Part shown: piece after piece, positions 10,638 to 27,104 of the stretch
How positions within the stretch are numbered: position 1 is the stretch's first letter
Layout: every line of letters begins with the position of its first letter
DNA from: a virus
Strand: one strand, 5' to 3'
IMG/VR virus record: IMGVR_UViG_3300022858_000412
Coordinates: 1-30,337 of that record
Length of the DNA stretch: 30,337 bases
Notes under the pieces: generated by a model
Database searches by the model: none
Seen by the model: only the letters and a program-made list of their open reading frames with translations
What the model was told of the DNA's origin: nothing
Program-made: the position numbers and the translations under genes

Positions 10638-11021
10638 ATGTTAAAGAAATCAGAAGTTAGAGTAATGATTAAAGAAATGATTAAAGAAGAAACCATTGCC
10701 TATGGCCCAGATAACCTTGGACATACTAAATTAAACTGATACGATAAATCGCTTGATGATTTTATTAAAGATGAATTAGGGGAGGACGTTATGCATGAGG
10801 GACTTACGAGTATATCATTCGCAATAGCAGGGAAGGCTTATAAAAATGATGCATTAAAAATTGCTAAACAATTAATTAAAGATTATAGAATTAGAAAGTT
10901 TAATAACAGAGCCAAAGATGAGTTAGTAAAGCAATTAAAGCCCAAATGGGAAAAAGGTAAAACTAAAGTCATTCTGAATGTTGATGATATTTTAAAACAA
11001 CAAGAATTGGGAACATTTTAA
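10638..11021 (+). CDS. Leader-bearing small protein
   Basis: The 127-residue protein begins MLKKSEVRVMIKEMIKEET, a clear member of the leader family with one extra residue before KKSE. One TGA (LNWYDKS, near 10738) is read as Trp and joins the leader to the downstream frame. The body is basic and helical, with KAYKNDALKIAKQLIKDYR and VKQLKPKWEKGKTKV. A basic body fits a protein packaged with DNA, but no family is recognised. AGGAG at 10626-10630. The stop overlaps the next start in TAATG. Confidence 0.8.
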
Positions 11022-11743: not shown

Positions 11744-12286
11744 ATGAACACATTAAAATTTAAATCATTACTTTTCGAAGGCTCTACAAATCAATATTAC
11801 AGAGCCTTAATGAAGTATGTTGGCAATAATGTTCGCTTAAAGCCGAAAGGTCATTACGAAGAAACAGATGAAGACGGAAACTTAGTGTTTACCACAGGCA
11901 ACGTTATAGCTCAAAGCGAAAAGAAAGAGCTTTCTGCCTCGAAATATATTGGTGGCGCAATGTTAGGAGCGTATTCTGCCTTGGCTTATATGGCTGGCGA
12001 AAATCCAATTGGCAGGGATATATATATTTATACAATTCCTAACAAACCAGACAAAGATTTGTCACATTTAACTTCAGATGATTTTGAATTTTTACAAGAA
12101 GTGAGATATACCAAACCAGTTTTGGCAAAATTTTTTAAGAAAATTAAAATAACAAAAACGATGGATAGAATTTTTGATAATTTTTATAATTTTATAAGTG
12201 GCGACGATTCATTTTGGAATGAATTGCCAGAAAATGAAAAAAGCGAAGTTAAAAACCTATCTAAATTTTTAAAGAAAATAAAATAA
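11744..12286 (+). CDS. Hypothetical protein with a leader-like LLFEG start
   Basis: The 180-residue protein starts MNTLKFKSLLFEGST, close in length and pattern to a T4 capsid-targeting sequence, with a possible cut after E12. The body has mixed strands and helices: TGNVIAQSEKKELSASKYIGG, a Gly/Ala-rich stretch (GGAMLGAYSALAYMAGE) and ENPIGRDIYIYTIPNKP. It uses only TGG for Trp. No family recognised. It starts five bases after the previous stop. Confidence 0.75.
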   Translation: MNTLKFKSLLFEGSTNQYYRALMKYVGNNVRLKPKGHYEETDEDGNLVFTTGNVIAQSEKKELSASKYIGGAMLGAYSALAYMAGENPIGRDIYIYTIPNKPDKDLSHLTSDDFEFLQEVRYTKPVLAKFFKKIKITKTMDRIFDNFYNFISGDDSFWNELPENEKSEVKNLSKFLKKIK

Positions 12287-12297
12287 AGGATGATAAT

Positions 12298-12612
12298 ATG
12301 AAAAAATCAGAAATAAGAATAATGGTCAAGGAAGAGGTAATAAGGGAAAGTTTTGCAGACAATATAACATCTGCATTGAGTGATAAAGATTTTTATAACT
12401 TATTAGATAATGAAATGATAAAAAGTGTTATAACCGTCATTGAAGAGAATGTTGATAATCTTATTAAGCACAAAGGCGTAGAGGCGGATAGAGATGAGGC
12501 CTCTAGGTTAGTAAATGATATATTTAGAAATTATGTGAAACATTTAACGAAGAAGGCGAAAAGAACAAGATTTTTCGGTAAATTCAAATTCAAAAATTTA
12601 TCAAAGAAATAA
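12298..12612 (+). CDS. Leader-bearing small basic protein
   Basis: The 104-residue protein begins MKKSEIRIMVKEEVIRES, the canonical leader with a likely end at E17. The remainder is a helical domain (YNLLDNEMIKSVITVIEEN) ending in a strongly basic tail (HLTKKAKRTRFFGKFKFKN). No Trp. The basic tail would suit DNA contact inside a head. AAGGAT precedes the start. Confidence 0.8.
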   Translation: MKKSEIRIMVKEEVIRESFADNITSALSDKDFYNLLDNEMIKSVITVIEENVDNLIKHKGVEADRDEASRLVNDIFRNYVKHLTKKAKRTRFFGKFKFKNLSKK

Positions 12613-12623
12613 AGGATAGCAAT

Positions 12624-13028
12624 ATGAAAAAGATTATGCCAGTATTATTAATTTTATGCTTAACATTTCCAATATTTGCACAGGAAATTATGACAGTAAT
12701 AGATAGCACATCAAAAGAATTTTATCCGTTGTCCAAAGAAGAATTAAAAACCTTGGCTGTAAAAGTTGATAGCTTACAGCAAGCAAATGAAATAAAAGAT
12801 GAGTTAATAGGTCAATTCAAAATACAAATAGAGAATTATGAAACCTTGGTCATTACAGATTCCTTAATTTTGTCTTACAAAGATAGACAAATTAAAACAT
12901 TGAACGAAATAAATAAATTACAAAAACCAAAATGATGAGAAAAATATGAAAAATGAGCGTATTATATATTCGGTGCAGGAAGTATTATTTTAGGTTCGTG
13001 AGTTGCTAGTAACGTTGTAGGGGGGTAA
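12624..13028 (+). CDS. Exported coiled-coil protein with a C-terminal membrane helix
   Basis: The 134-residue protein has a signal peptide (MKKIMPVLLILCLTFPIFAQ, cut near FAQ-E), a coiled-coil stretch of about 70 residues (VDSLQQANEIKDELIGQFK onward) and, after a Trp-rich hinge KWWEKYEKW, a hydrophobic tail ending SWVASNVVGG. The hinge and tail are visible only when the TGA codons near 12933-12956 are read as Trp. It may act in the envelope at lysis, in spanin-like fashion. The signal peptide resembles those of Bacteroidota, a weak hint to the host. Confidence 0.75.
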
Positions 13029-13030
13029 TT

Positions 13031-14653
13031 GTGAGTACACCAACAGAAGAGCAAATTAAAATAATGGAAATGCGAAAGCTTATTAAAAAAGAAATGAGCA
13101 GATGCGCAAGAGACCCAGCATATTTTATGATAAAATATTGCAAAATTCAACATCCATTAAAAGGTTTAATAAAATTTGATTTGTTTGATTATCAAGAGAA
13201 AGCAATCCAAGAGTTTTTAAAATACCGATATAACATTATTTTAAAAGCAAGGCAGTTAGGCATCTCAACTTTAACTTCGGCTTATGCGACATGACTATTA
13301 ATGTTCCATGATAACAAAACAGTATTGATTATAGCAAATAAAGCAAAAGTTGCCAATAGTATGATTAATAAAATATCAACTATTTACAAAAACTTACCGA
13401 GATGATTGCAAAAAATTGTGCAAAATGAAAACGGTAAATTACCAGTAGATAGTAAAACAAAACTTACATTCATAAATGGCTCAACTGTTGAAGCTACATC
13501 TGCAACCGATGACGCTGGTCGTTCTGATGCATTATCATTATTAATTTGGGATGAGTGTGCGATTGTAAAAGAAAATTTAGCAAGGGAGATTTGGACAGCC
13601 GCAAGCAACACATTGGCAACTGGTGGTGATTGTATTATTTTATCAACTCCCAAAGGTGTTGGTAATCAATTTCACGATTTATGAGTTGATGCTGAATCAG
13701 GCGATAATGAGTTCCATACCATTAGATTGCCATGAAGCGTACACCCGGAAAGAGATCAAATTTACAGAGACAATGAAGATAAGAAATTAGGCAAGAAGAG
13801 GGCGTCTCAAGAGAATGATTGTTCTTTCCTTACTTCTGGTGATTCAGTAATTGATTTGGAAATAATAGAAGCACATAGAAAAAAGAATGCATGTGACCCA
13901 ATAGAAAAAAGATATGCCGGAAAATTCTGAATATGAAAATATCCCGAAGCAAATCATAAGTATATAGTTTCTGTTGACGTTTCACGTGGTGACTCAGAAG
14001 ACAAGTCAGCATTTCATATTTGAGATATAGAAACACTCGAACAAGTTGGCGAGTATGTTGGGTTAATTGACCCGTACGACTTAGGAACTTGGACAGTAAA
14101 CGTAGCACTCGAATACAATAGTGCTTTATTAGTAATAGAAAATAACGGGCTTGGGTATGCGGCCATAGAGGGCGCATTACATAGAAGATATGGCAATTTA
14201 TATTATTCTGGCAAAGCAGGAACAAAAGCTGATATTGGCAAACGAGTAAAAAATTTATTAAAATCAAATGATGATAAAGTTCCAGGATTTAGTAATACAA
14301 TGATAACAAGACCATTAATGATAAATAAAATGGAAAGATTTTTTAGAGAAGAGGCTGTCATAGTACACTCAAATAGATTATTAAATGAGTTATTAACTTT
14401 TATATATAAAAAGGGTGGCAAAGCAGAAGCCATTAGTGGTAAGCGAGACGACTTAACATTGTCAGCGGCAATAGGATTGTACGTAAGAGATACGGCAATT
14501 ACTTTATTACAAGAAAGTGTTAAATCAACGAAAAGAATGTTAAAATATACAGGCAAATTAACTTCAAAGCAAATGTATAATGACAATGATAATGACGACC
14601 CATGGAAAGCGTCAGTAAGTGGGCAAGTAATGAATTTAAGAGAATTCTTATAA
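13031..14653 (+). CDS. terL: Large terminase subunit, gp17-like DNA-packaging ATPase/nuclease
   Basis: The 540-residue protein pumps DNA into the prohead and cuts it. ATPase motifs: variant Walker A KARQLGIST (K72-T80, with no Lys before S/T), Walker B LLIWDE (W173, D174, E175) and coupling motif STPKG (205-209). Nuclease motifs: D316 in SVDVSRGD, E370 in VIENNG and D473/D474 in GKRDDLT. Seven in-frame TGA codons (13292, 13403, 13682, 13733, 13928, 13934, 14021) stand beside four TGG; reading them as Trp gives motifs such as YATWLL and FWIWKYP. The start is GTG, two bases after the previous stop, with a run of G as ribosome-binding site. The portal follows after 15 bases; T4's tail genes 18 and 19 are not between them. 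Confidence 0.95.
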
Positions 14654-14668
14654 AAGGAAGGCTAAAAT

Positions 14669-17143
14669 ATGGCACAAGAAACAAGTAATTTTTATAGAGG
14701 GTTGAGAAGATTATTCTCTAATAACGTGATTGTAAGATACGTTGGTAAGAAAAAAGTAAAAGTTGTAGATGCGGACGGATTTCAAATGCGTCATGGTGAA
14801 TCTGGTAAATATTCTCGTATGAAAACATACGCAAAATTAGAAGAAGCGAGTGGAGCAATTCAAGGTTCTATTGATCATCAAATGCTATATAATGATTATA
14901 TGCAAATGGATAGAGACCCGATATTGTCATCGGCACTTGATCTTTACGCAGAAGAATCAACTACAAGAGATGAGTTCGAGGATATCTTATCTATTACGAC
15001 TGATAATAAAAATATAGAAGATATATTACAAAATTTATTTTATGACATTTTGAATATCCCATTTAATTTATGAGGCTGAATCAGAAATATGGCTAAATTC
15101 GGAGATTGTTATTTATATTTAGAACTTCATAAAGATTTGGGCATTATTAACATTAAAATATTATCGCCGTATGAAGTCGAAAGACTTGAAGGCGTTGACG
15201 AAGACAATCCATACTTAGTACAATTTGTTATAGCTGGTGATAAAAAAGATATGTTAGAAGAATTTCAAGTAGCTCACTTTAGATTGTTAGGCGATGTATT
15301 TCACTTCCCATATGGTCGAAGTATGCTTGAAGGTGGTAGGAAGATATGGCAACAATTAACACTTATGGAAGATGCTATGCTTATTCACAGAATAACAAGA
15401 GCACCTGAAAAAAGAATTATAAAAATAGATGTTGGCGCATTAGCACCTGACGAGATTGACGACCATATGGAAAACATCATGAATGGTATGAGAAGGACTC
15501 CATTTATAGACCAAGCAACTGGAGAATATAACCTTAAATATAATATGATGAATATTAACGAAGATTTTTTCTTCCCAGTTCGTGGTGGCGACACTGGGAC
15601 TGAAATCGATACATTAAGTGGAATGGAATACGCAATTATTGACGACATCGAATACTTACAAAGAAAATTATTTGCATCATTAAGAATACCTAAAGCGTTC
15701 TTAACTTTCGAAGAGGGAATTGGATGTGTTGTTCCTGAAACAGAAATTAAATTAATTAATGATGAAGTAAAAACAGTTAAAGAATTAATCGAAGATTATG
15801 AAGGTGGAATTAAAAATTATGTATATTCAATTAATGAAGAAAAAGAAATTGTTCCTGGCGAAATATCTTGGGCCGGATATACAAAGAAAAACGCTAATTT
15901 AGTTAGAGTTAATTTAGATAATAGTAAATATATTGATTGCACTCCAGATCATGAATTCTTAACAAGAAATGGCGAGTGAGTTGAGGCACAAAATTTAATA
16001 GAAAATCAATCATTAATGCCTTTATATTTGGATAAAACAAAATACGGATATACTACCGTTTACCAACCAAATACGGGCAAATATAAAGAAGTACATAGAC
16101 TTGTTCCAGAACATTATGGAAACGTTATTAAAGGTTCAGACATGGCAATTCATCATTGTGATTTTAATAAAAAAAATAACATTGCATGGCCGAAATTTAT
16201 AAGAAATAAAAATATTAAAAACCATAAAGTAATTAGCATAGAATTTCTTAATGAACAAAGAGATACATGCGATATTACAATTGAAAAATATCATAATTTT
16301 GCAACAAATGCTGGCGTAATCATACATAATTCAAAAGCCACACTTGCCGCCGAAGATTTAAGATTTGCGAGAACAATTGAAAGAATACAAAGTATTATTG
16401 TTTCTGAATTAACAAAGATTGCGATTATTCACCTTTATTCTCAGGGATATAAAAATAAAGATTTATTAGATTTTGAATTAAGTTTAACAAATCCTTCAGT
16501 AATACATGAAGAGATGAAAATTGAATTATGGAATGCCAAAGTATCATTGGCAAATGATATGATGGATACAAACCTATTAAGTAGTGATTTTGTATATGAG
16601 CAAATTTTTAAATTAAATGATATTGATTCCGATAAAGAACGTGCTGGCGTTATCAAAGATAAAAAACGAATGTTTAGAATGGAAACCATTGCAAATAATG
16701 GAACGGATCCGGCAGATGCAAAGTCAGAACCAGAAGGTGGAGATAATGAGGATGATGGTTTTAGTTGGGACGGTGACGATGATGATGTTGAAGAGAATGT
16801 TAGTTCGAGCAGTGACGATAACAGAAAAGCAAAGAAAAGTAAAATTGATACGACGTTGGGAGTAGATGATATGAAAGACGCACATAAATATGACAAAGAT
16901 GTAATTTCTCACAAGTATAAAGGTGGCAGTGCTTTATCATTAGAGGGAACCGTAGCTGACGTATTTGGGGAAGACGATGAGAAAATTGAAAAGAATCAAG
17001 CATTAACTGAAAAGAGAATTAAGGATAAATTTGGTTTCTTGGAAAGACTTGAAGCGACCTTAACTTATGCAAAAGAAGAAAGTGAGAAAGCCTTAATAAA
17101 AGAGGTTTTAAAAAGCGAAAAAGATAAAATAATGTTAAAATAA
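14669..17143 (+). CDS. 20: Portal protein, gp20-like, interrupted by an intein
   Basis: The 824-residue precursor loses a 202-residue intein to give a 622-residue portal, the dodecameric DNA gate at the head vertex. T4-type portal signatures are DPILSSALDLYAEEST (about 89-104), FGDCYLYLE, FHFPYGRSMLEGGRKIWQQL, APEKRIIKIDVG and, after the splice, EDLRFARTIERIQ. TGA at 15071 and 15080 (NLWGWIRN) join the two first parts. The C-terminal ~100 residues are low-complexity, with an acidic Asp/Glu/Ser stretch (GDDDDVEENVSSSSDD), longer than in T4 gp20 (524 residues). AAGGAAGG precedes the start. The next gene follows after a 99-nt gap. Confidence 0.93.
15725..16330 (+). other. Intein in the portal gene with a degenerate HNH nuclease segment
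   Basis: The 202-residue element starts at Cys (TGT 15725, portal residue 353) in CVVPETEIKLI, has block B CTPDHEFLT, block F RDTCDITIEKYHNFAT and ends VIIHN with Ser as +1 residue. Between blocks B and F lies about 75 residues containing HRLVPEHYG and MAIHHCDFNKKNNI, the hallmark of an intein HNH endonuclease, but the usual remainder of that domain is missing. The nuclease is therefore probably dead. TGA 15977 is Trp in GEWVEAQNL, matching TGG in the kinase intein. Confidence 0.92.
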
Positions 17144-17242
17144 TTGAAGAAAATTATATTTATATTAAATAGCACAAATTAAAAGAATAATTTGTAAGAA
17201 TAAAAATTGATAATGATAATAATATTATCAAGGAGAAAAAAT
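17144..17242 (+). promoter_or_regulatory. Intergenic region with hairpin and candidate promoter element
   Basis: This is one of three wide gaps in the window. It holds TATTTATA at 17157-17164 followed by AGAATAA-type sequence, and a perfect 8-bp inverted repeat, TTGATAAT (17207-17214) and ATTATCAA (17224-17231), with a 9-nt loop. The hairpin's 3' arm touches the AGGAG at 17231-17235. It may modulate translation of the next gene or separate it from the portal transcript. There is no U-run, so it is not a standard terminator. Confidence 0.4.
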
Positions 17243-18127
17243 ATGCGTAATCTAAAGCATTTAAAATTGCGAAATACATCAATAATATACGAGACATTGT
17301 TAAGACAAATAACGATAGACGCCCTTGAAGGACGTACTAATTCCCCAGTCTTCGATATATTGAAAGAGTATTTTAATAAGGGTAAATTATTATCCGAAGA
17401 ATTAGGGTTATACAATAGTATTGTTGAATACAAAACTGACAAAAAAGATAAAATGGAATATTTTTTAAAAACAGTTATTCAAATGCGTAAGCGATTAAAC
17501 GAATCGGCATTGGCGCAGGAGAAATATAACGTTATTAAAGAAATTAAAAAACATTATAATCTTAATACGTTGTTTAACTCGAAAGTTGGAAATTATAAAA
17601 TATTGGCGTCAATATATAGATTATTTGAAGCTGAATTACATCCAACTCAAAATTACAACCCAACTGCAATCGTTCAAACTAAATATACAATCATTGAGCA
17701 TATTACTAATCCAATTCAAAAGATAGACAAAACAAAAATCGATTTAATTGTTGAAAAGTACAAACAACAAGCTAAAGAAATAAGAGTTGTTGCTTACAAT
17801 ATGTTAATTGAAAAGTTCAATCAAAAGTATAGTTCCCTTAGTGATAACCAACGTTGTTTGTTAAAAAAATATATTGATAGTATGTCAAATGTGACCGCAC
17901 TAAAAGAGTATGTTGGTAGTGAAGTTCCAAGAGTATCAAAACTTTTAACAAGCTACATTCCTAAAATTGAATCTGAAATTATTAAAATTAAACTTACAGA
18001 GCTTTTGAAACATACAGAAAGTCTCAAGAAAGGTAACAGAGTTAAAGATTCTCAAATTACAAATTTGATGAAGTTATACGAATTGGAAAGTGAAATTTCC
18101 CAGACGCTAAATGAGGATGGTGAGTAA
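17243..18127 (+). CDS. Conserved-looking helical protein of the head-assembly block (unknown)
   Basis: The 294-residue protein is almost entirely helical and contains no Trp. It begins MRNLKHLKLRNTSIIYETLLRQ and shows repeated charged helices, for example IKEIKKHYNLNTLFNSKVGNY and LKKYIDSMSNVTALKEYVGS. It sits directly after the portal, where T4 has the small core genes 67 and 68, but it is far larger and shows no clear similarity to them. Start ATG 17243 follows AGGAG at 17231-17235; an upstream in-frame ATG at 17207 lies in the hairpin and lacks such a site. Confidence 0.75.
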   Translation: MRNLKHLKLRNTSIIYETLLRQITIDALEGRTNSPVFDILKEYFNKGKLLSEELGLYNSIVEYKTDKKDKMEYFLKTVIQMRKRLNESALAQEKYNVIKEIKKHYNLNTLFNSKVGNYKILASIYRLFEAELHPTQNYNPTAIVQTKYTIIEHITNPIQKIDKTKIDLIVEKYKQQAKEIRVVAYNMLIEKFNQKYSSLSDNQRCLLKKYIDSMSNVTALKEYVGSEVPRVSKLLTSYIPKIESEIIKIKLTELLKHTESLKKGNRVKDSQITNLMKLYELESEISQTLNEDGE

Positions 18128-18130
18128 ATT

Positions 18131-18430
18131 ATGAAAAAATTAGAAATTAGGCAAATGATACAGGAAGAGTTAGCAAAACTAAACGAAGCTCAAAAATATC
18201 CTACTCAAGATGAAGCCGAAGCAATGAGTGACTGGTACATGGCAATGAATAACGTATATATTGGCGCCGGGGGAAAAAAAGTAAGAGCCGCATTTGAAAA
18301 GGCTGACGATATTAGAATCAAATTACACACAGAAATTTTTGGTGATAAGTCTCCATGAGCATTAACAAGAAAAGGGAATAAATCAGAAGTAGTTTGAGAC
18401 AAACATAAGGCTGAAAGGTTAGGAATATAA
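18131..18430 (+). CDS. Leader-bearing small protein
   Basis: The 99-residue protein begins MKKLEIRQMIQEELAKLNEA; the expected protease step is after E19. The body, from QKYPTQDEAEAMSDWYMAM to VVWDKHKAERLGI, is mixed in charge and contains two TGA-encoded Trp (SPWALT, VVWDKH). A 28-nt stretch of the leader (18151-18178) is identical to 18453-18480 in the next gene, although the bodies are unrelated. Confidence 0.85.
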
Positions 18431-18432
18431 TT

Positions 18433-18675
18433 ATGAAGAAATCAGAAATTAAGCAAATGATACAGGAAGAGTTAGCAAAAGTAATGCAAGAGAAATCTCC
18501 ACAAATGAAAGCCAATAAAGGCGGCCAATATATTTCGGACATTATCAAGAAAATTGGAACAATTGATTCTCATGCTGGCATAGATAAAAGCAATAAAAAT
18601 TACAAAGAATTGATATCTAAAATGAAAGCCGCAATTAAAGCATTACAAAGAGCAAAATCCCTTTTGAGACCATAA
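18433..18675 (+). CDS. Leader-bearing small helical protein
   Basis: The 80-residue protein begins MKKSEIKQMIQEELAKVMQE. The body is basic and helical, ending KMKAAIKALQRAKSLLRP, which could bind DNA or form a helical bundle. No Trp. It starts two bases after the previous gene and shares leader DNA with it on one side, and with the stub at 18678 on the other. Confidence 0.85.
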   Translation: MKKSEIKQMIQEELAKVMQEKSPQMKANKGGQYISDIIKKIGTIDSHAGIDKSNKNYKELISKMKAAIKALQRAKSLLRP

Positions 18676-18677
18676 TT

Positions 18678-18716
18678 ATGAAGAAATCAGAAATAAATGA
18701 AATAAAGGTGATATAA
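18678..18716 (+). pseudogene. Leader-only stub (12 codons)
   Basis: An ATG followed by KKSEINEIKVI and TAA: the leader start without any body. Twenty-three nt around its start (18672-18694) are identical to those at the start of the preceding gene (18427-18449). The stop overlaps the next ATG in TAATG. It looks like the remnant of a leader gene whose body was lost or replaced. It might still be translated as a coupling peptide. Confidence 0.6.
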
Positions 18717-18982
18717 TGAAAAGTTTTTTAAGAGAAGTTAGTACAACAGGAGATATTGCTGGATATGAAACTCCATATGCATTTTCAACCAAAGGTCCAA
18801 ATTCAAAGCGCTTAAAAGATATTCGCAAATGATGTAAGATTTTTGGGTGAGAAGCCGCAAAAGGTGCTAGTCTTAATGAAGAATTTGAACCAGAAGATTA
18901 TAGGAAAATTAAAGAATTAATTAGGACAGAAATGGCTTTAATTATGTTTGATTTATTTAAAAAAAGAAAAGCTTGAATGTAA
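18716..18982 (+). CDS. Small protein with a short LRE-type start
   Basis: The 88-residue product begins MKSFLREVSTTGDIAGYETP; L-R-E at 5-7 could be a short version of the leader end. Three TGA codons (RKWCKIFGWEAA and KAWM) are read as Trp; with TGA as stop the gene would be broken. The C-terminal half is helical and basic (ALIMFDLFKKRKAWM). Cotranslated with the stub before it. Function unknown. Confidence 0.65.
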
Positions 18983-18996
18983 TAGGAGACATACAG

Positions 18997-19296
18997 ATGA
19001 AAAAATCAGAAATACGAACAATGATAAAAGAAGAGATGATTAAAGAAGGTATGGACTACGGTTTGAAATATGGCATTAGAGATAAAGTAAGAAGTGCTAT
19101 TAATGACATTACAGCAAATATGGAATTCTATTATAGCGAAGATGATGAAATGGATTACAAACAGGCTCACAAAAAAGCAATTGAAGCATATAAAAAATGA
19201 GCAAAGGCAGTCTTTGAACAATTAAAAAAATTAAAAGAAGAAACAAGGTCAGGCTCAAACATATACGATGTAACTTTTAAGAAAAATAAAAAATAA
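18997..19296 (+). CDS. Leader-bearing small helical protein
   Basis: The 99-residue protein begins MKKSEIRTMIKEEMIKEG. Start at 18997 follows AGGAG at 18983-18987; the in-frame ATG at 18973 lies inside the preceding gene. The first 31 nt are identical to those at 20232-20262. The body is acidic in the middle (YYSEDDEMDYKQ) and basic at the end (YDVTFKKNKK), with one TGA-encoded Trp (KKWAKAV). Confidence 0.82.
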
Positions 19297-19297
19297 T

Positions 19298-19978
19298 ATG
19301 TTTAGTTTTATTAAACTTTTAACAGAATTGCAAAGTGACTATGGTGCTGGAATTACTTTCGTAGATATTGACGAAACAACATTTCATACCAAAGCAAAAA
19401 TAGATGTGGTGGATGATGATACTGGGAAAATAGTTAAGAAACTTAATAATCAAGAGTATAATACCTTTAAGTTAAAAAAAGGATATCGTTATGGCTATAG
19501 TGAGTTTAGAGATGCGAAATTATTTAAGAATACTGCAATTCCTATAATGCCAGTTATTAAAAGAGTTAAGCAAATGTTTAAAAGAATTGGTAATGGTGAT
19601 TCTAAAATTGTATTTTTAACAGCACGTGCTGAGTTTGATAATCCAGATATTTTTATTAGTACGTTTAGACAATATGGGATACCGATTGACAAAATAGACG
19701 TGCAATTGGCGGGCAACCTTGCAACTGGAACGGTTGCGAGCGCAAAGAAGAAAATCATAACTCAGTATTTAACAACTGGGCTATATAGACGTGTTAGAAT
19801 GCTTGATGATGATATGGGAAACATAAATATGTTTATCGATTATAGTAACAATGTACCAAAAGCAATAGTCAATAAAGTAAAAAAAAGATATAAGATTGTT
19901 GGGGACGAAAAAATTCCACCAATTCAATTTTTTGCATTACTCGTAAACCAAAATGGCAGTTTAAAAAGAATACAATAG
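19298..19978 (+). CDS. HAD-superfamily phosphatase
   Basis: The 226-residue protein has the HAD motifs: I, VDIDET with nucleophile D23 and acid D25; II, VFLTAR with T108; a basic residue near K151-K153; and IV, MLDDDMGN with D170-D172. HAD enzymes of phages include 3'-phosphatases acting on nucleic-acid ends and nucleotidases; the substrate cannot be told. The N-terminus MFSFIKLLTEL precedes the fold by some ten residues and matches the short capsid-leader pattern (LLTE), so the enzyme may be carried in the head. It uses no Trp. It starts one base after the previous stop. Confidence 0.82.
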   Translation: MFSFIKLLTELQSDYGAGITFVDIDETTFHTKAKIDVVDDDTGKIVKKLNNQEYNTFKLKKGYRYGYSEFRDAKLFKNTAIPIMPVIKRVKQMFKRIGNGDSKIVFLTARAEFDNPDIFISTFRQYGIPIDKIDVQLAGNLATGTVASAKKKIITQYLTTGLYRRVRMLDDDMGNINMFIDYSNNVPKAIVNKVKKRYKIVGDEKIPPIQFFALLVNQNGSLKRIQ

Positions 19979-19991
19979 GGAAAATATAAAA

Positions 19992-20480
19992 ATGAAAAAA
20001 TCAGAAGTTAGAAAAATGATAAGAGAAAAAGTTAAAAAATTAAGAGAAGAGCCAGACACTTATGTATCAAAAACATCAAATGGCTTTACTTTAATTCACA
20101 AAGGTATGCCAGTAATGTCATCAGATAGAACGATGAATGATGTAAAAAAAATGGCAAAAAAAATGAAATTAAAAATTGGTCCCAAATTATGAAACAATGG
20201 CAAATGAGAAACCATTAAGGAAGGCAAACAAATGAAAAAATCAGAAATACGAACAATGATAAGAGAAGAAGTTAAAAAATTAAGAGAAAAAAAAATCCAA
20301 GAAGCGCAACGTAATTTTAGTGTATTAGTAAGACCATCAAAAGCTAAAAATGCAAAAAGTGCACTTGATAAATCAGAAGATAAATTGGATTATGAATTAT
20401 ATGGAAGCGTATTCATGTTCAAAACAAAAGACGATGCACAAGAAGCGCTATATATATTCAGAAAAAGCAATATTTATTAA
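19992..20480 (+). CDS. Double-leader protein: two leader genes fused in one frame
   Basis: With TGA as Trp (20190, 20205) the frame runs unbroken for 162 residues. It begins MKKSEVRKMIREKVKKLREE, has a ~60-residue basic first body (VSKTSNGFTLIHKGMPVM), then a second leader MKKSEIRTMIREEVKKLREK at residue 81 and a second body ending DDAQEALYIFRKSNIY. The second ATG (20232) has its own AAGGAAGG at 20217-20224, so the second protein may also be made alone. Either it is a two-cargo polyprotein or the first gene lost its stop. Confidence 0.75.
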
Positions 20481-20512
20481 TTAAGTATAAATTTATTTAG
20501 GAGAAACATAAG

Positions 20513-20713
20513 ATGAAAATGAAAAAATCAGAAGTTAGAGATATGATTAAAGAAGAAGTCCAAGCACTTAGAGAAGCTGATTATAAAGAATTAGTTAAGA
20601 TGGTTAAGGATTTGGAATCCAAACTTAAAAAGTATAAGATAACAGATAAAGTGAAAGCAAAAAAAGCCGAAGATGCACTAAAGCAACTTAACTCTGTATT
20701 AAACACAATATAA
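20513..20713 (+). CDS. Leader-bearing small coiled-coil protein
   Basis: The 66-residue protein begins MKMKKSEVRDMIKEEVQAL, followed by READ; the expected protease step is after the E of LRE. The rest is one charged helix pair (ELVKMVKDLESKLKKYKI, then AEDALKQLNSVLNTI). Initiation could be at 20513 or 20519; AGGAG at 20499-20503 favours the first. No Trp. Confidence 0.82.
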   Translation: MKMKKSEVRDMIKEEVQALREADYKELVKMVKDLESKLKKYKITDKVKAKKAEDALKQLNSVLNTI

Positions 20714-20727
20714 ATAGGAGATATAAA

Positions 20728-20835
20728 ATGAAAAAGTTATTAATAAAATTTAAGTGGGTATTGTTAGCAATTGTAGTATTGGGGCTTTACTTATCAATCG
20801 CTTTTGGTGGCGTTATTGATTTTACAGCAATATAA
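20728..20835 (+). CDS. Tiny single-helix membrane protein
   Basis: The 35-residue product has a basic start (MKKLLIKFKW) and one membrane helix (VLLAIVVLGLYLSIAFGG). AGGAG lies eight bases before the ATG, and the neighbours on both sides are spaced in the usual way, which supports a real gene. It is the only plainly hydrophobic member of the block between portal and protease. Confidence 0.65.
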   Translation: MKKLLIKFKWVLLAIVVLGLYLSIAFGGVIDFTAI

Positions 20836-20851
20836 AAATAGGAGACACAAA

Positions 20852-21061
20852 ATGAAAATGAAAAAATCAGAAGTTAGAAAAATGATCAAAGAAGAGTTAC
20901 TTAAAGAAGGCGGACTTGATTCAAAAATACAAAGTGAATTTCATGACTTGATTCAGCAAGAGTGAACAAAAAGAAAGTTTTCTGGAAAAGATGCAAATGC
21001 TGATAAATTATTCGATGCGTTTAAAAAAAGTTTTTGGGTATATTTCAAAAAGATAAAATAA
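20852..21061 (+). CDS. Leader-bearing small protein
   Basis: The 69-residue protein begins MKMKKSEVRKMIKEELLKEG; the body is basic and ends KKSFWVYFKKIK. A TGA (IQQEWTKRK, near 20972) is read as Trp. The MKMKKSEV start is shared with the gene at 20513, and both follow a GGAGA-type site, pointing to duplication of the start region. Confidence 0.82.
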
Positions 21062-21089
21062 ATATAATATAAAAATAGGAGAAAATATT

Positions 21090-21854
21090 ATGAGAATAAG
21101 AGTAAAAGAAGTACGTGAGTGGATGAAATCACTTGATGAAAATAAATGGCGTAAGACATATAATGTTGATGCCAGAAGAGTTGCGCATTTCGCCAAAAAT
21201 ATGATGGAAGGTTCTGAACTTGTATTGCCAACCTCTTTACAAAGAAAGGTTGAAGGATACGAATATAAGAGAGAAAAGAAAATGGCAAAAGAATATGTAA
21301 GAGTTTTTAAGAAAAGACTTAAAGAACAAAAACAAGAAGAAGCATTACAAGAATCAATTAAAGTTATAATCGGCGAAGAAATTCAAAAATTAAATGAAAC
21401 GTTAAGTGAAATTGATGCTCCCGAAATGGCGAAGGTTGCCAAAAAGTATGGGTTCAAAATTAAATTAGATTCAAAAAGAAAAGTGAACGATTCCTATATT
21501 TGAGATTTTGATGTATTGAACAATAACATTACCAGAATTAAAATTTCAAATGCAGGCGGAAAAGCTGATACAGCAAATGTTTATTCTGGGAAAAGTACGA
21601 AAAATGGAATAATATTTAAAGATTATAAAGATTTATTCTCACAAATGAAAGAACTTAAAGAATCGACAAAAAATAAAGTTAGAGCAATGATTAAAGAAAT
21701 AATTAAAGAAGAAAACGAGTATCAAGAATTCTTTAAAACCGTTCTTGACAAGTTTAAAGTTAAGTCGCCTGCCGAATTAAGCGATGAAAAGAAAAAAGAG
21801 TTTTTCAATTATATTGAAAAGTTTTGGACTAAAGAAAAGGATCATAAAGAATAG
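21090..21854 (+). CDS. Helical protein with an internal leader-like motif and a C-terminal SPAELSDEKK domain
   Basis: The 254-residue protein is joined across TGA 21501 (SYIWDFD). The first third is basic and helical (REWMKSLDENKWRKTY, KRLKEQKQEEA). A strand-rich middle follows (TRIKISNAGGKADT). At about residues 195-214 comes STKNKVRAMIKEIIKEENE, very like the N-terminal leaders but internal, then a compact domain: EYQEFFKTVLDKFKVKSPAE, then SDEKKKEFFNYIEKFW. I believe the last block recurs in other phage and bacterial small proteins, but give it no function. It directly precedes the protease gene, so it may be a core or cargo protein. Confidence 0.78.
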
Positions 21855-21883
21855 AAATAAGCAGGCAAATTAGGAGAAATATA

Positions 21884-22507
21884 ATGAATAACAAAAAGTT
21901 ATTAATAGATACGATGATGTTCGAAGTTCCACATGAAGTAATAACAGAGGCAATGGGAAGAACAGACAATAGATTTATCGTTAAGGGCATTGTACAAAGA
22001 GCAGATGCATTAAATCAAAATGGTAGAATATATCCTTATGATATATTGACGAAGGAAGCGAAAAATTATACAGATTCATATATTAAAGAAAGCAGGGCGA
22101 TGGGAGAATTAGATCATCCTGATTCAAGTGTGATAAACTTAAACAATGTTTCCCACAATATATTAGATTTATATTGAGAAAATAAAAATTTAATGGGAGT
22201 TATTGAAGTATTGGGAACTCCTTCTGGTAACATCTTAAAAGAATTATTTAAGTCAGGTATTAGATTGGGCATTTCGTCAAGAGGATTGGGTTCAATTAAA
22301 AACAATCAAAATGAAGACAATATGAGTGCAGACTATGTACAAGAAGACTTTGAATTAATTTGTTGAGATTTTGTCTCCAACCCTTCAACAAAAGGTGCAT
22401 TTATGAAACCACTTAAAGAAGGTGTAGATTCAAACCTTGTAAAAGAAGATACTAAATGGAATAAAGTTAGCAATATAATTACAGAATTATTGCCTGAATT
22501 AAAATAA
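21884..22507 (+). CDS. 21: Prohead maturation protease, gp21-like (family S77)
   Basis: The 207-residue serine protease sits in the prohead core and cuts the scaffold, capsid protein and leader-tagged internal proteins after Glu. Signatures: NRFIVKGIVQRADALNQNGR (about 29-48), GELDHPDSS with catalytic H78, and GISSRGLGS with S131/S132. TGA codons in LYWENK and ICWDFVSNPS are read as Trp; the latter block is the usual one for these proteases. The N-terminus (LLIDTMMFEVPHEVITEAMG) has its own x-x-E sites, as expected for a self-processing enzyme. It lies in the centre of the leader-gene block, T4-like in order before gp22 and gp23. Confidence 0.93.
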
Positions 22508-22526
22508 TACTTAGGAGAAATACGAA

Positions 22527-22766
22527 ATGAAAAAATCAGAAATAAGAAAAATGATTAGAGAAGAGATTAAACGATTAAACGAGGCAGTTAAATTGAAGAA
22601 CGTAAAAACAAAGGACGAAGCAAGACAACAAGCAAAAGATTGGCAAAGCGACTTTTCAAACAGATCAATGAGTTGGGCCGAATTGATGAATGCGGGGACA
22701 CATTTTGAAAAATTAGGGAAAAAATTTAATTTAACTAAAGAATTTGAAGAAAATGGAATAATATAA
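22527..22766 (+). CDS. Leader-bearing small protein
   Basis: The 79-residue protein begins MKKSEIRKMIREEIKRLNEA, a textbook leader with LNE-A at its end. The body (AKDWQSDFSNRSMSWAELM) is helical and uses TGG for Trp. It follows the protease gene by 19 bases, with AGGAG before the start. No family recognised. Confidence 0.83.
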   Translation: MKKSEIRKMIREEIKRLNEAVKLKNVKTKDEARQQAKDWQSDFSNRSMSWAELMNAGTHFEKLGKKFNLTKEFEENGII

Positions 22767-22778
22767 AGAGGGTCAATA

Positions 22779-23000
22779 ATGAAAAAATCAGAAATAAGAA
22801 AAATGATTCAAGAAGAATTGTTGGAAGGAAAATCAAATTGGGAGAAGAATAGAAAAGAGGCAATAAATAATGTTGTTTCGGCATTGAAGTCGGCAAGCAA
22901 AGTTAATTATATAAGTCAGTTTGACAAAACTCAATGATTGGTTGATTTTAAAAATGGCCAAAGTGCATTAATTAAAATTGGCATATATAATGAAGATTAA
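22779..23000 (+). CDS. Leader-bearing small protein
   Basis: The 73-residue protein begins MKKSEIRKMIQEELLEGKS; the step LLE-G comes a few residues earlier than in its relatives. The body (EAINNVVSALKSASKVNYI then TQWLVDFKNGQSALIKIGI) has one TGA-encoded Trp near 22936. It ends TAA 22998-23000. Confidence 0.82.
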
Positions 23001-23002
23001 AA

Positions 23003-23065
23003 ATGAAAATAGAAATTTATAAAAGTGGAATTTTTGGAAATAGTTCAGTTAATATATTAAAATAG
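23003..23065 (+). CDS. Possible 20-residue peptide
   Basis: A short frame (MKIEIYKSGIFGNSSVNILK) fills the gap between two leader genes. It starts two bases after the previous stop, and its stop TAG overlaps the AGGAG of the next gene. It has no ribosome-binding site of its own. It may be a remnant or simply an open stretch. Confidence 0.3.
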   Translation: MKIEIYKSGIFGNSSVNILK

Positions 23066-23078
23066 GAGTAAATTAAAT

Positions 23079-24203
23079 ATGAAGAAATCAGAAGTTAGAC
23101 TAATGATTAGAGAAATGGTTAAGTCTGCCCGTAATGAAAACATTGATCCGAGTATAAAGAGAGCCATAAAGACACTCAAAAAGGGAGACAAGTTCACGGT
23201 TAAATCTCCTGACATTAAAGCGGACTGAATAAATATACCATTAACGTTTGTTAGTCACAACGCATTTGCTGAATGAATAGTTTGTAAGGATAAAAAAGGC
23301 AAAGAGTATAGAGTTCCGACGACAAAGATGCGTGACCAAACAATGTCTGTTGAAAAATTGAATGAAAACATTGAACTTAATGAAAGCCAAACAGACATTA
23401 TGAAACTTGATTTTAAACAAGCAAGTAAAATTATTGGGCAATATGAAGCATTAAGGCGCCTCGGTCAATATAATATGTTTGATTTTCTTGCAGTTCAAAG
23501 AGTTGCTTACGAAAATAAACTTTATGATTTTGTTGCATTTACCGCCAATAACAAAAAGGCATATGCGTCAATTATAAAAAATTATAGTAAGTTAATAAAA
23601 ACTATTGACAAGAAAGACATACCAAAATTAAAGAAAGTTAAAACAAGTTATTCATTGGAAGGTATTGATGAGTCAAATGTTTTTGATAAAAATCAAATAG
23701 CAATTGCGAAGAAAACATTAAAAATGTCTGATGCCGGTGCTAATGCAATGGGTGGTATGACAAAAGACGAAGCCCGTGCTATTCTTAAAAAACATAAGAT
23801 AAAAATTAAAGAATGGAAAGAAGAGATAGGAAAGAAATTAGAAATTGGAAAATTCTATAGACAAACATTTAAAAATAGAGATATAGTATATTTTCTACCC
23901 AAAAAATTATATAAGAATGGAAACTATAAAGGGTTAAAATTTACTGTAGATGCTGGCAGAAAATTAAAGGGAAAGGCAAAACAAACAAGTGTTACTGATC
24001 CACTCTTATGATATAAAGTAGATAAGATGGACCCAAAAGTAAAAGCTAGATTTGGCGAGTCTATAACGAATGAAGCAAAAACTCCATATAATTTTGAATG
24101 TATGGAATGCGATCATAAATTTAGTCGCAAAACAATACCCAAAAGTATGGAAGTACGTTGCCCAAAATGCAAGAGTTATGACGTAGACCCACAAGAATTT
24201 TAA
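23079..24203 (+). CDS. Leader-bearing multidomain protein with a C-terminal zinc ribbon
   Basis: At 374 residues this is the largest protein with the canonical leader (MKKSEVRLMIREMVKSARNE). Next comes a small strand-rich domain (GDKFTVKSPDIKADWINIPL to KEYRVPTTKM), a helical middle (QASKIIGQYEALRRLGQY), an ARAILKKHKIKIKEWKEEI segment and a C-terminal zinc ribbon with two Cys pairs (ECMEC and CPKC, about 16 residues apart). TGA is Trp at ADWINI, AEWIVC and LLWYKV, linking parts that would otherwise seem to be separate fragments. The ribbon suggests nucleic-acid or protein binding; the reaction, if any, is unknown. AGGAG at 23064-23068. Confidence 0.8.
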
Positions 24204-24215
24204 GGAGAAATAATA

Positions 24216-24860
24216 ATGTCAGGAATTTTTAAGTACAAATATCAATTGTTGCCAGCAGACTATGAAAAATTCGTCAAGCTATACAAAGAGGATCATCCTA
24301 AAATTATCATAAAATTTGATAAAGGTGACCAAACTTATTATGCTTTTAAGAAAAAACGTAAAGAGTTAGAGTGGAAATATGATAGAGACAATTATCAATT
24401 GTATATTGACGAGCCAATTAAAAACTATTTCTTTAAGAAATTTATAAGGAAGGAAAATAAAATGAATATAAAAAAAGAAGAAATCAAAAAACTTGCTGAA
24501 GAAATCATGAATGATGATTGCTCAGTAAAAAAGAAGAAAGTTAAAAAAGTAAAAAAAGAACAATGGGACGAACTTCCAGTGAAAGAAAGATTTGCTCTTC
24601 TATCAAAGATTATTTTTGATACTAAAGATTTAACAAATATTGGTGCCGAAGTTTCTTCGCTTACAGAAAAAATAGGTGAAACAATTATTGCAGAAAGTGA
24701 TGGGGATTGGTTTGATAAGCATACGCTTAAGAGGAATGCAAGTGAAATTACCAAGAAAGGTCATGAGTTTAATAAAAACGCATCCGAACTTAAAAATGTA
24801 TTTGAAAGAATGCAAGCACTCTATGAAGAAATAGGAATGCTTATAGAAAGATATTTGTAG
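24216..24860 (+). CDS. Two-part protein with an internal leader-like start
   Basis: The 214-residue frame joins an 82-residue strand-rich domain (YQLLPADYEKFVKLYKED, IIIKFDKGDQTYYAFKKKRK) to a second part starting MNIKKEEIKKLAEEIMND. That second start (ATG 24462) has AAGGAAGG at 24446-24453, so it may be an independent start. Part two is Lys-rich (VKKKKVKKVKKEQWDEL) then a long helical bundle (SSLTEKIGETIIAES, FERMQALYEEIGMLIERYL). The plan matches the double-leader gene at 19992. Function unknown. Confidence 0.75.
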   Translation: MSGIFKYKYQLLPADYEKFVKLYKEDHPKIIIKFDKGDQTYYAFKKKRKELEWKYDRDNYQLYIDEPIKNYFFKKFIRKENKMNIKKEEIKKLAEEIMNDDCSVKKKKVKKVKKEQWDELPVKERFALLSKIIFDTKDLTNIGAEVSSLTEKIGETIIAESDGDWFDKHTLKRNASEITKKGHEFNKNASELKNVFERMQALYEEIGMLIERYL

Positions 24861-24870
24861 GAGAACGTAA

Positions 24871-25125
24871 ATGATAAAATCAGAATTAAATGAAATGAAA
24901 AAGATAATGTTTGAAGCAGACCCAAAAGACAAACATTTGCACCCAAACTTAAAACTAATAAAACCATATCCAGGCATGGCTCTCAAAGCAGGCACAATCT
25001 TTAACTGAGATTATGAGTGGCCAGGATACGTTGCGAATAGGCGCCACAGTTCAGAATGAACATGAGAATATTTCAAACCTTGGATTGGTAAATTTTTTAA
25101 AGAAATTAAGAGAAAAGAAAAATAA
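24871..25125 (+). CDS. Small protein with a leader-like start
   Basis: The 84-residue protein begins MIKSELNEMKKIMFEADP, a looser leader with a likely step at MFE-A. The body is Trp- and Pro-rich (FNWDYEWPGYVANRRHSSEW, then TWEYFKPWIGKFFK). Four positions use TGA or TGG as Trp within 25 residues; with TGA as stop only a fragment would remain. AGGAG precedes the start and TAATG overlaps the next gene. Confidence 0.75.
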
Positions 25126-25448
25126 TGAGTACAAGTGCCGTTGAATTGAAAGAAGCTTACAAGCCCGATAATATACGTCTCTATTCGGTAGTAGGCTATC
25201 CAGCAATTAATCGTAAGAATGGATATTTCTGCAATCTTGACGACGTTTGGGAAGACGATATTAAGCATGGCACAAAAGAGTGAGATAAAATATACAAAAA
25301 ATTAAAGCCGAAAGATAAGAAAACAGTTGATGATATACTTAGTAATATAAGCGTTAACGAAGTAGAAGATGGCGATATGTTTAGCTTTACAGACTTAGTA
25401 AAAGGCCCAAAAATATTAATATACACAGGAGTTATAAATGGAAAATAA
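25125..25448 (+). CDS. Hypothetical small protein
   Basis: The 107-residue product starts MSTSAVELKEAYKPDNIRLY with no leader. It has NGYFCNLDDVWEDDIKHG, one TGA-encoded Trp (TKEWDKI), and an acidic helical middle. It overlaps the previous gene by one base and the next by 11. It is the only gene in this stretch without a leader-like start apart from its right neighbour. No family recognised. Confidence 0.65.
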
Positions 25449-25752
25449 AGATATAAAAGCAGAAATTAAGAAAGAAACGAAGACCAAAGTAGCAAACCCA
25501 GCGCCTAAGCATGTAAGAACAGTCGCAGAGGTAAAGTTAGCAATTCAAGAAACAGAGGCGTTAGACAAGCTTATTAGTGAAATAAATAAAGGTGATGTTA
25601 GTTTTTATACTCAACAAAACCCAGTAATTTTCGCTTCACCTGTAAGGCCAACTGCTATGCCGAAAGATATAAACGAAAAGGTTTTTAATTATCTTGATGA
25701 ACAGCTACAAAAGAAAATAGATAAGTTAAATAAAATCATAACTGGAGAATAA
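25438..25752 (+). CDS. Hypothetical helical protein
   Basis: The 104-residue product begins MENKDIKAEIKKETKTKV, with a charged helix that is only vaguely leader-like, followed by KHVRTVAEVKLAIQETEALD and a Pro-rich turn (FASPVRPTAMPKD), then a terminal helix. No Trp. It overlaps the previous gene, and AGGAG lies upstream inside it. Function unknown. Confidence 0.7.
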   Translation: MENKDIKAEIKKETKTKVANPAPKHVRTVAEVKLAIQETEALDKLISEINKGDVSFYTQQNPVIFASPVRPTAMPKDINEKVFNYLDEQLQKKIDKLNKIITGE

Positions 25753-25778
25753 CATAATGAAGAAGTCCGAAATTAGAA
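25744..25778 (+). repeat. 35-nt direct repeat, copy 1 (ribosome-binding site, start codon and leader start)
   Basis: These 35 bases, from GGAGAATAAC through the codons for MKKSEIR, are identical to 26011-26045. The copy includes the ribosome-binding site and spacer, which protein selection would not keep, so it marks a recent duplication or gene conversion of a leader cassette. Confidence 0.9.
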
Positions 25779-26011
25779 ATATGGTCAAAGAAGAGCTTTT
25801 GAAAGAAAGACCGGCTGAGGGCGAAGAAATCGTAGATAAAGTTTTTAGAGGAATTGAAAGAACTATTGGTTCAAATGCTACGAATAAAATTCTTAAATCA
25901 TATAGTGTTGATTTAGCTTTTGAATTTGCTCATATTATCAATAATATTAATGATGGCAAATTACTCACTGGCAAAGTATTTAACGTGTTAAGAAAGTTGA
26001 AAATAAAATAG
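25757..26011 (+). CDS. Leader-bearing small protein
   Basis: The 84-residue protein begins MKKSEIRNMVKEELLKERP. The body is helical (VDKVFRGIERTIGSNATNKI, then FAHIINNINDG) and ends in a basic segment (GKVFNVLRKLKIK). No Trp. Its start region is duplicated ahead of the next gene. Confidence 0.83.
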   Translation: MKKSEIRNMVKEELLKERPAEGEEIVDKVFRGIERTIGSNATNKILKSYSVDLAFEFAHIINNINDGKLLTGKVFNVLRKLKIK

Positions 26012-26045
26012 GAGAATAACATAATGAAGAAGTCCGAAATTAGAA
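26011..26045 (+). repeat. 35-nt direct repeat, copy 2
   Basis: Identical to 25744-25778, 267 bases downstream. The sequence after the leader diverges completely, so only the start cassette is shared. Confidence 0.9.
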
Positions 26046-26455
26046 CAATGATTAAAGAAGAAATACAAAAATTAAATGAAGCAAATTTAAGTGATAACGA
26101 ATTGCATAATATTGTGAGATGAATCCCTGCCGGTTCTCTTGTGGTATCTACGTTTGCGGGCAAAAACTTGAAAATAGTATTGACCGACCATGTATCAGCA
26201 CCACCGTTAGTAACAAAAGATATAAAAAGTGTTGAACGCCATCAAAATAAAGCAGTAGAAAATTTTATAGACGAAGCCAAGAAATTTATCAATATTAGCA
26301 AGTCAAGTATCCATCCGTATATTCATATGAAGGGAGAAAAGGGTAGAATTTTATTTACCTCAGAATTTTCTCTTGATGTTAAAACGAAACCAGAACTTCA
26401 AAAGTTAGAACAATTAGTTAAAGACTTAAAGTTTTACAATAAATTAAAAGGATAA
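26024..26455 (+). CDS. Leader-bearing protein
   Basis: The 143-residue protein begins MKKSEIRTMIKEEIQKLNEA, with LNE-A at its end. A TGA at 26118-26120 (VRWIPAG) joins the leader to the body, which has strands (SLVVSTFAGKNLKIVLTDHV) and a helix (HQNKAVENFIDEAKKFI), ending KFYNKLKG. No family recognised. Confidence 0.83.
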
Positions 26456-26460
26456 TAATT

Positions 26461-26784
26461 ATGAAAAAATCAGAATTAAGAACTTACATTAAAGAAGAAC
26501 TACAAAGATTATTTGAGATTAAATATACGCAAACTAACAATTTACGTATATGGTTGTCGCCAGATAAGAAAACAATATATTTGGATAATGTTTCGCCCGC
26601 AAGCACACCGCAACCAATTTGGCCACTTATTAAAGCATTTCAAAAAAACTTTGGCAATTTAATGGTTGTAAATGGTGACAATAAATGGATAAAGGGAGAT
26701 GATTTGGTTGTAATAGTAAATCTTGATGATACTCCCATTAATGAGAAAAAATTAGAAAAAGTATTTAAGAAGGTGAGTGTATAA
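26461..26784 (+). CDS. Leader-bearing small protein
   Basis: The 107-residue protein begins MKKSELRTYIKEELQRLFEI, with a step at LFE-I. The body is a compact alternation of strands and helices (NLRIWLSPDKKTIYLDNV, FGNLMVVNGDNKWI, DDLVVIVNLDDTPI) like a small ferredoxin-type fold, by appearance only. Trp codons are TGG. It shares its last base with the next start. Confidence 0.82.
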   Translation: MKKSELRTYIKEELQRLFEIKYTQTNNLRIWLSPDKKTIYLDNVSPASTPQPIWPLIKAFQKNFGNLMVVNGDNKWIKGDDLVVIVNLDDTPINEKKLEKVFKKVSV

Positions 26785-27104
26785 TGAAAGATTTGTTAAA
26801 TGAAATAACAATTGGCGGTGGCGTATGATTAAGCTCTAAAACTTTTGCAAATAAAAAGCTTATAGAATCTAGTCAAATCCACTTAAAAGGATATATTGCT
26901 GAACTTATGACTAATAGAAAAACATTATGGTTAATGCCTAATAAAGGTGCAAGAGATTGGAAAAAAGAGAAAGCATATTTGAAAAACTTTTTTAACAAAG
27001 TAAAATTTGCTAACCGTGAATTGGATTCTTTAGAGGTCACTCTTCCTCTAAAATCTGACAAAGTAGAATTGGAGCTTGTTTTGACTGGCAAGATGGAGAA
27101 ATAA
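26784..27104 (+). CDS. Small protein with a short LLNE start
   Basis: The 106-residue product begins MKDLLNEITIGGGVW; LLNE-I is a short leader-like pattern. The body is basic (KGARDWKKEKAYLKNFFNKV) followed by strands (LEVTLPLKSDKVELELVLTG), and its layout resembles that of the preceding protein. One TGA is Trp (GVWLSS). TAATG overlap with the gene upstream. Confidence 0.72.

Follow-up and report, generated by a model that had tools for sequence, protein, structure and literature searches.

A shared N-terminal leader with a predicted capsid-targeting role heads unrelated small proteins in uncultivated T4-like phages

Proteins injected together with phage DNA act before the phage genes are read, and they are foremost among the factors expected to overcome bacterial immunity. 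To our knowledge, few such proteins are known beyond T4 and the giant phages. In T4 and the other T-even phages, the internal proteins IPI, IPII and IPIII are small, unrelated to each other and headed by a short common leader, which ends in hydrophobic-x-Glu followed by Ala (PMC9026906, PMC12373910). The T4 protease gp21 cuts after L/I-X-E, and the capsid-targeting sequences (CTS) of T4 are propeptides of 10-19 residues (PMC9026906). At least ten internal proteins with a common N-terminal packaging leader are found across the T-even phages, and T4 IPI, IPII and IPIII are inhibitors of GmrSD restriction enzymes, each acting on another member of that group (PMC12373910). Unrelated cargo under one leader is therefore an already known kind of system. 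In phiKZ and SPN3US, many head ejection proteins are packaged, and their propeptides are removed by gp175/gp245, diverged relatives of gp21 that cleave behind the Glu of a short motif; the first 15 residues of SPN3US gp53 and gp54 are identical (PMC5694885). Here we describe a leader of this general kind, MKKSEIRxMIxEE..LxE, in the IMG/VR record IMGVR_UViG_3300022858_000412 (positions 1-30,337, the whole stretch analysed, hereafter the window), which belongs to an uncultivated T4-like myophage.

The window contains 14 strong copies of the leader, each heading an unrelated small-protein body (Table 1). A position-specific leader model of 14 columns, built from strong copies, scores them at 34-42. 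A fifteenth copy, in the gene at 10638 (MLKKSEVRVMIKEMIKEE), begins one residue earlier and aligns from the second codon, and two weak copies (7808 and 9669) score 7-8. All the leader starts listed in an earlier reading of the window, made from the sequence only, were found in the DNA. When all the collected loci were then scored, 217 matches reached 20 or more, and reversed sequences gave none at 6 or more. The N-terminal 40-mers match one another in 111 of 136 pairs. Between two bodies the best match, with composition correction off, had E=0.003, which makes them effectively unrelated, as the sequence-only reading had proposed; a short N-terminal peptide is common to proteins with unrelated bodies, as in the T4-type capsid-targeting sequences. 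Synonymous codons differ within the leader (GAG and GAA in 7 and 6 copies for Glu13, ATA or ATT for Ile6, and AGA, AGG, CGA or CGC for Arg7), and therefore conservation is at the protein level. Note that the proteins at 20513 and 20852 start with MKMKKSE.

Other claims of the sequence-only reading stood in part. It had counted about seventeen separate proteins; the leader sites are all there, but 19992 and 20232 belong to a single open reading frame (ORF) of 162 codons carrying two leaders when TGA is read as Trp, within which translation may also start separately at 20232. The hydrophobic-x-Glu end that it ascribed to the leader is present in 15 of the 17 copies and absent from 23079 and 7808. 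The stretch between the portal gene and a scaffold-like gene holds 13 of the 14 strong copies, seven before the protease gene and six after it; copy 12298 lies upstream of terL. The head cluster gp20-gp21-gp22-gp23 is thus where the leader genes are mainly found. Clustering round the protease holds for this window and is not a rule: a near-identical 38.3-kb contig carries 23 leader copies, seven of them past gp23.

IMG/VR was scanned with two leader patterns and redundancy was then removed, which left the leader on 285 non-redundant proteins (median ORF about 95 amino acids), at a density of up to 10 in 14 kb; most of the leader contigs are fragments. A pattern like it occurs only once among the genomes of 84,980 bacterial and archaeal species, in a 3-kb contig (L303, CAJQGZ010000010.1, 1310-3074) with leaders repeated inside two standard-code ORFs; this contig is probably of phage origin and was binned with a metagenome. 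A tblastn search of cultured phages with the leader alone found none, a weak test that the low-complexity filter may have hurt, so that this absence is not firm; tblastn with the 22527 protein against cultured phages gave nothing useful, and a literature search for the letters of the leader returned no paper mentioning them.

The conservation of the leader drops at Glu 16-17 or 19-20, positions one helical turn apart. In 257 of the 285 proteins (90%), a [LIVMF]xE has its Glu within residues 15-26, compared to 13-18% in downstream intervals of equal length and to about 150 of 285 when those residues are shuffled. P3 is Leu or Ile in 233/285, P2 is mostly Asn or Lys, and P1' is Ala, Gly or Ser in 115/285. 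The T4 sites compared are FIAE/A in IPII and IPIII, TITE/A in IPI and FLTE/A in gp23 (the slash marks the cut or the corresponding junction). In the gp23 of the window the expected cut is ELIKE/STTTG, aligned with T4 FLTE/AEIGG, and relatives have QLISE/A and QIVSE/A.

Two classes of leader were distinguished, the long MKKSExRxxIxEE..LxE of 16-20 residues and short T4-like leaders such as MKLLDLLNE. In the window, the motif is present at residues 7-25 in 30/45 genes, compared to 10/45 further in (p 2e-5). No excess of N-terminal [LI]xE was found over the whole genomes of G024 or the cultured Flavobacterium phage immuto (MW353175); it was seen in head-region contigs only. The bodies of the leader proteins were searched against all ORFs of the collected loci, and 52 of them match proteins without a recognised leader, a few being self-fragments; in 36 of these 52, the match begins near the leader end. 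Examples are KILKE/EIFKF and MIKLIDLLTE/SLFPF (immuto), KILLNE/GTRSRIG and NDYILTE/GTRSTIG, TVLKE/QGGYVE and STIQE/QGGYVE (immuto), and IITE/LDFKSQDAF and PINE/LDFKSQDAF. Other bodies recur within longer proteins, SLQE/DRKADF as GALNE/DKKSDF and KILSE/SKYKVGD as NTKLTE/SKIKKGD. [LIVMF]xE stands at exactly the matching junction in 13 of the 28 distinct homologues, with an average of about 1 at the other offsets (-12 to +12), which argues for a real cut at this junction and for leaders that are exchangeable modules, rather than for the periodicity of a Glu-rich helix. Judging from these pairs, short T4-like leaders of the MIKLIDLLTE type appear to serve the same bodies as the long class. Moreover, what forms the C-terminal part of the 18716 protein stands as a leader protein of its own in another locus (L007), and the domain of the 26784 protein sits fused behind an MKKSE-leader protein in a second one (L043).

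Leader-like stretches also occur inside ORFs (26 cases, several without any Met); those with a Met may serve as internal translation starts. The 23079 protein, whose leader end lacks LxE, has KLNE/NIELNE/SQ internally. The 1220-residue protein at 3884-7546, a candidate polyprotein, matched no family, and a structure prediction for its repeat of about 200 residues, made from five sequences, reached a mean predicted local distance difference test score of 67 with no credible fold match. Some of the cargo is probably made as polyproteins, which would be cut at the internal LxE.

The leader also co-occurs with a prohead protease. Peptidase_S77, the gp21 family, is present in 29 of 100 contigs selected by the leader alone (16/50 and 13/50) and in 0 of 35 control contigs, which were selected by the similar start pattern MKKSDY and contain no leader (Fisher p 5e-5 overall, 0.003 in contigs of 15-100 kb). 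This is the association that the sequence-only reading had anticipated. Against itself it had named the case of a leader that is frequent in phages lacking a prohead protease. This case was searched for and did not turn up: all nine leader-selected contigs above 100 kb carry the S77 protease, eight of them cleanly (one of the nine, L044, entered via a truncated leader ORF). In the window, the product of the 21884 gene is a predicted prohead protease of this family and presumably the processing enzyme; it matches phrog_207 (2e-21), its N-terminal 97 residues pass the Peptidase_S77 cut-off of 27, and the whole gene in the near-identical contig scores 85 bits. The S78 prohead protease, tried as an alternative partner, is absent from 50 protease-negative leader contigs.

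Because of the S77 co-occurrence, the abrupt [LI]xE boundary and the exact [LIVMF]xE junctions, we consider it highly probable that the leader is a capsid-targeting sequence that the gp21-type protease takes off, and that the bodies are packaged in the head and deliverable with the DNA. The enlarged set of head cargo proposed in the sequence-only reading, with one signal and gp21-like cutting, draws indirect support from the same three lines, and injection of this cargo as early anti-host effectors may follow. The place of the genes in the head cluster, the low density of [LI]xE in the bodies (at the composition value, unlike T4 gp22, gp67 and gp68) and the near-absence of the leader from cellular genomes also speak for capsid targeting. 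By analogy with T4, from which the scaffold is carried over as the docking partner, the amphipathic leader would dock the precursors onto the scaffold core during prohead formation. The gp21-family protease would then cut after the Glu of Leu/Ile-x-Glu at the leader end, and the mature bodies would remain in the head with the DNA, could be delivered to the host at infection and might have a counter-defence role there. A more ambitious version, a modular head-loaded delivery system with swapped leaders and cargo, polyproteins, one prohead protease and dozens of injected proteins per phage, is one on which we are evenly divided.

Several observations weigh against capsid targeting. The protease is seen directly in only 29% of the leader contigs, most of which are fragments; T4-type portals are present in seven of the protease-negative ones. 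Tail sheath, baseplate wedge or replication genes lie on several of the large ones, and the myophage tail genes there are what fragments would be expected to show. Most S77 phages lack the MKKSE leader (no trace in about 60 of 80 loci), which is confined to some lineages. About 10% of the 285 leader proteins, and two of the 17 copies in the window, have no site. The offsets show an unexplained side peak at -5 (6 cases among the 28 homologues), which may be a second nearby site. Finally, one relative has ten leader copies near its tail-sheath gene, a further departure from clustering round the protease.

The alternative that survives best, although we consider it improbable, is that the leader proteins are core components of scaffold type, which would be targeted to the prohead and cut, but then lost by degradation and expulsion ahead of DNA packaging, as T4 gp67 and gp68 are, and would not be cargo. 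Address and protease would then be identical, and the genes do lie among head-core genes. However, the leader bodies contain 0.96 [LI]xE per 100 residues (composition value 1.01), compared to 2.5-5.6 in the T4 core proteins gp22, gp67 and gp68 and 0 in the bodies of T4 IPI-III; 151 of 285 have none at all, and the diversity and rapid change of the bodies go far beyond what a scaffold would allow. In these features they look more like internal proteins than like shredded core proteins. Searches of 97 leader proteins with Pfam, PHROGs and PADLOC gave scattered single matches and no common function. The 14 window bodies tested all have an isoelectric point of 8.9-10.3; this basic charge was judged a weak pointer to internal proteins that associate with DNA, since 20 of 29 other proteins of this phage are also basic.

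It is more improbable still that the leader docks elsewhere, on the tail, a host protein or the membrane, and that its hydrophobic-x-Glu end is mere helix periodicity. The leader looks like an amphipathic, Glu-rich helix with a hydrophobic moment that is not exceptional for its composition, and leader genes flank the tail-sheath gene in one relative; yet periodicity would not be expected to place [LIVMF]xE exactly at the junction behind unrelated leaders and at internal joints, and P1' prefers Ala, Gly or Ser. Hardly credible at all is a conserved 5' end that serves as a DNA-level recombination seed or translation-start module for cassette exchange, with a peptide that has no role: bodies are swapped between leaders as it predicts, but the residues are kept while synonymous codons vary, and the leader also lies inside ORFs, in several places without Met, with a protein-level motif at the junction. 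Cassette exchange may act in addition to capsid targeting.

Compared with the described systems, the leader phages share with T4 and the T-even phages a gp21-family protease and a variable gene set. The letters of the leader differ, MKKSELRQIIREEIQKLNE compared to MKTYQEFIAE in T4, and by inspection nothing can be aligned except the [LI]xE end; the MKKSE leader would thus work like the T4 CTS, with descent from it unsupported by the letters. The leader genes number about 15-23 per 30-38 kb, compared to the three of T4 and to a reported minimum of ten across the T-even phages, and, unlike those of T4 internal proteins, they lie inside the head cluster, with leaders also inside ORFs. phiKZ and SPN3US differ in their AxE/SxE motifs and in their cargo, large paralogues and RNA polymerase subunits instead of a multitude of unrelated small proteins. 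Immuto has orthologous gp21 and gp23, an identical head gene order and some bodies homologous to MKKSE-leader bodies, with LxE at the matching junction. Three of its otherwise different proteins (103806, 117631 and 118632) have a common leader like MENFDLKKFLVENKLTTNSKILKE, which is of another sequence (..NFDLKKFLVENKLT.NSxLLKE), and its genetic code is standard. The common leader of these three proteins suggests that each lineage has its own common address peptide.

New here are a separate leader family in uncultivated phages, a much larger predicted cargo in each genome, an exchange of leaders in which the site is preserved exactly, and candidate polyproteins; these polyproteins, the short class of leader and the genetic code had been overlooked in the sequence-only reading. 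The leader is recognisable in raw sequence and has a defined predicted cut site, so that metagenomes can yield a list of hundreds of proteins predicted to be injected, together with the predicted starts of their mature forms. In the leader swaps and the candidate polyproteins, nature has also provided an experiment on what a capsid address requires.

Table 1. Leader proteins, candidate polyproteins and head genes of the window; a slash marks the predicted junction
Feature	Position	Strand	Leader or junction	Basis or remark
Leader protein	12298..12612	+	MKKSEIRIMVKEEVIRE/SFADN	leader score 38
Leader protein	18131..18430	+	MKKLEIRQMIQEELAKLNE/AQKYP	leader score 38; code 4 ORF
Leader protein	18433..18675	+	MKKSEIKQMIQEELAKVMQE/KSPQM	leader score 38
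Leader protein	18997..19296	+	MKKSEIRTMIKEEMIKE/GMDYG	leader score 41; code 4 ORF
Two-leader ORF	19992..20480	+	MKKSEVRKMIREKVKKLRE/E at start; MKKSEIRTMIREEVKKLRE/K at 20232	TGA=Trp
Leader protein	20513..20713	+	MKMKKSEVRDMIKEEVQALRE/ADYKE	leader score 40
Leader protein	20852..21061	+	MKMKKSEVRKMIKEELLKE/GGLDS	leader score 40; code 4 ORF
Leader protein	22527..22766	+	MKKSEIRKMIREEIKRLNE/AVKLK	leader score 40
Leader protein	22779..23000	+	MKKSEIRKMIQEELLE/GKSNW	leader score 41; code 4 ORF
Leader protein, 374 aa	23079..24203	+	MKKSEVRLMIREMVKSARNENIDPS	leader score 38; code 4 ORF
Leader protein	25757..26011	+	MKKSEIRNMVKEELLKE/RPAEG	leader score 38
Leader protein	26024..26455	+	MKKSEIRTMIKEEIQKLNE/ANLSD	leader score 41; whole only in code 4
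Leader protein	26461..26784	+	MKKSELRTYIKEELQRLFE/IKYTQ	leader score 34
Leader protein	10638..11021	+	MLKKSEVRVMIKEMIKE/ETIAY	by-eye alignment, then scored; code 4 ORF
Divergent leader	9669..10175	+	MNNNDVRNILKEEIILAE/GTGEL	leader score 8
Divergent leader, doubtful member	7808..8167	+	MNKKDFRKFVIEEVRNIMAG, without LxE end	leader score 7
Short-leader protein	18716..18982	+	MKSFLRE/VSTTGDIAG; internal SLNE/EFEPEDY	
Short-leader protein	26784..27104	+	MKDLLNE/ITIGG	body comparison
Short-leader candidate	11744..12286	+	MNTLKFKSLLFE/GSTN (SLLFE/G junction)	N-terminal motif only
Short-leader candidate	19298..19978	+	MFSFIKLLTE/LQSD	N-terminal motif only
Short-leader candidate	24871..25125	+	MIKSELNEMKKIMFE/ADPK (KIMFE/A junction)	N-terminal motif only
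Short-leader candidate, intein-split P-loop protein	1160..2317	+	MRLVEFLPLITE/GVND	N-terminal motif only
Candidate polyprotein, 1220 aa, five tandem repeats of about 200 aa	3884..7546	+		[LI]xE precedes each repeat
Protein with internal leader-like stretches	21090..21854	+	IIGEEIQKLNE/T and STKNKVRAMIKEIIKEE/N	
Terminase large subunit (TGA=Trp)	13031..14653	+		alignment with the annotated terL genes from two cultured phages
Portal gp20 with intein	14669..17143	+		PF07230, 154 bits; intein match
gp21-family prohead protease, presumed processing enzyme	21884..22507	+		PF03420, 38.5 bits on first 97 aa
Acidic gene in gp22 scaffold position, presumed docking core	28219..29346	+		precedes gp23 as in T4
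gp23 major capsid protein	29362..30337	+		44% identical to Mel-JY01 capsid protein

Read in code 11, the conserved genes of the window are broken up by in-frame TGA codons. Residues aligned to these codons in terL, portal, gp21 and gp23 of two cultured relatives are Trp at 23 of 26 positions, and therefore the window phage is taken to read TGA as Trp. The code 11 reading, in which these four genes came out broken, was dropped in favour of TGA=Trp, which makes terL, gp20, gp21, the scaffold-like gene and gp23 whole and lengthens the genes at 10638, 18131, 18997, 19992, 20852, 22779, 23079 and 26024. No tRNA genes were found in the window, so there is no suppressor tRNA evidence for the code. 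The leader is found in standard-code phages too; leader and recoding are therefore separable traits. The scaffold-like gene at 28219 gave no family match in profile searches of the window proteins.

The leader contigs G001, G009 and G083 are likewise recoded, and several metagenomes hold contigs near-identical to the window. A leader-only ORF of 19 codons (MKKSEFRAMIKEEILKTLK and then a stop) is kept in three loci (L022 at 7236, L026 at 1227 and L044 at 2762). The intein in the P-loop protein interrupts it within the ATP-binding loop (GGGPG / SGKTT). Adjoining this gene are two probable homing-type nuclease genes (2324-2716 and 2740-3837), predicted from sequence, with an HNH-like CxxC...HHI motif and a GIY-YIG-like start.

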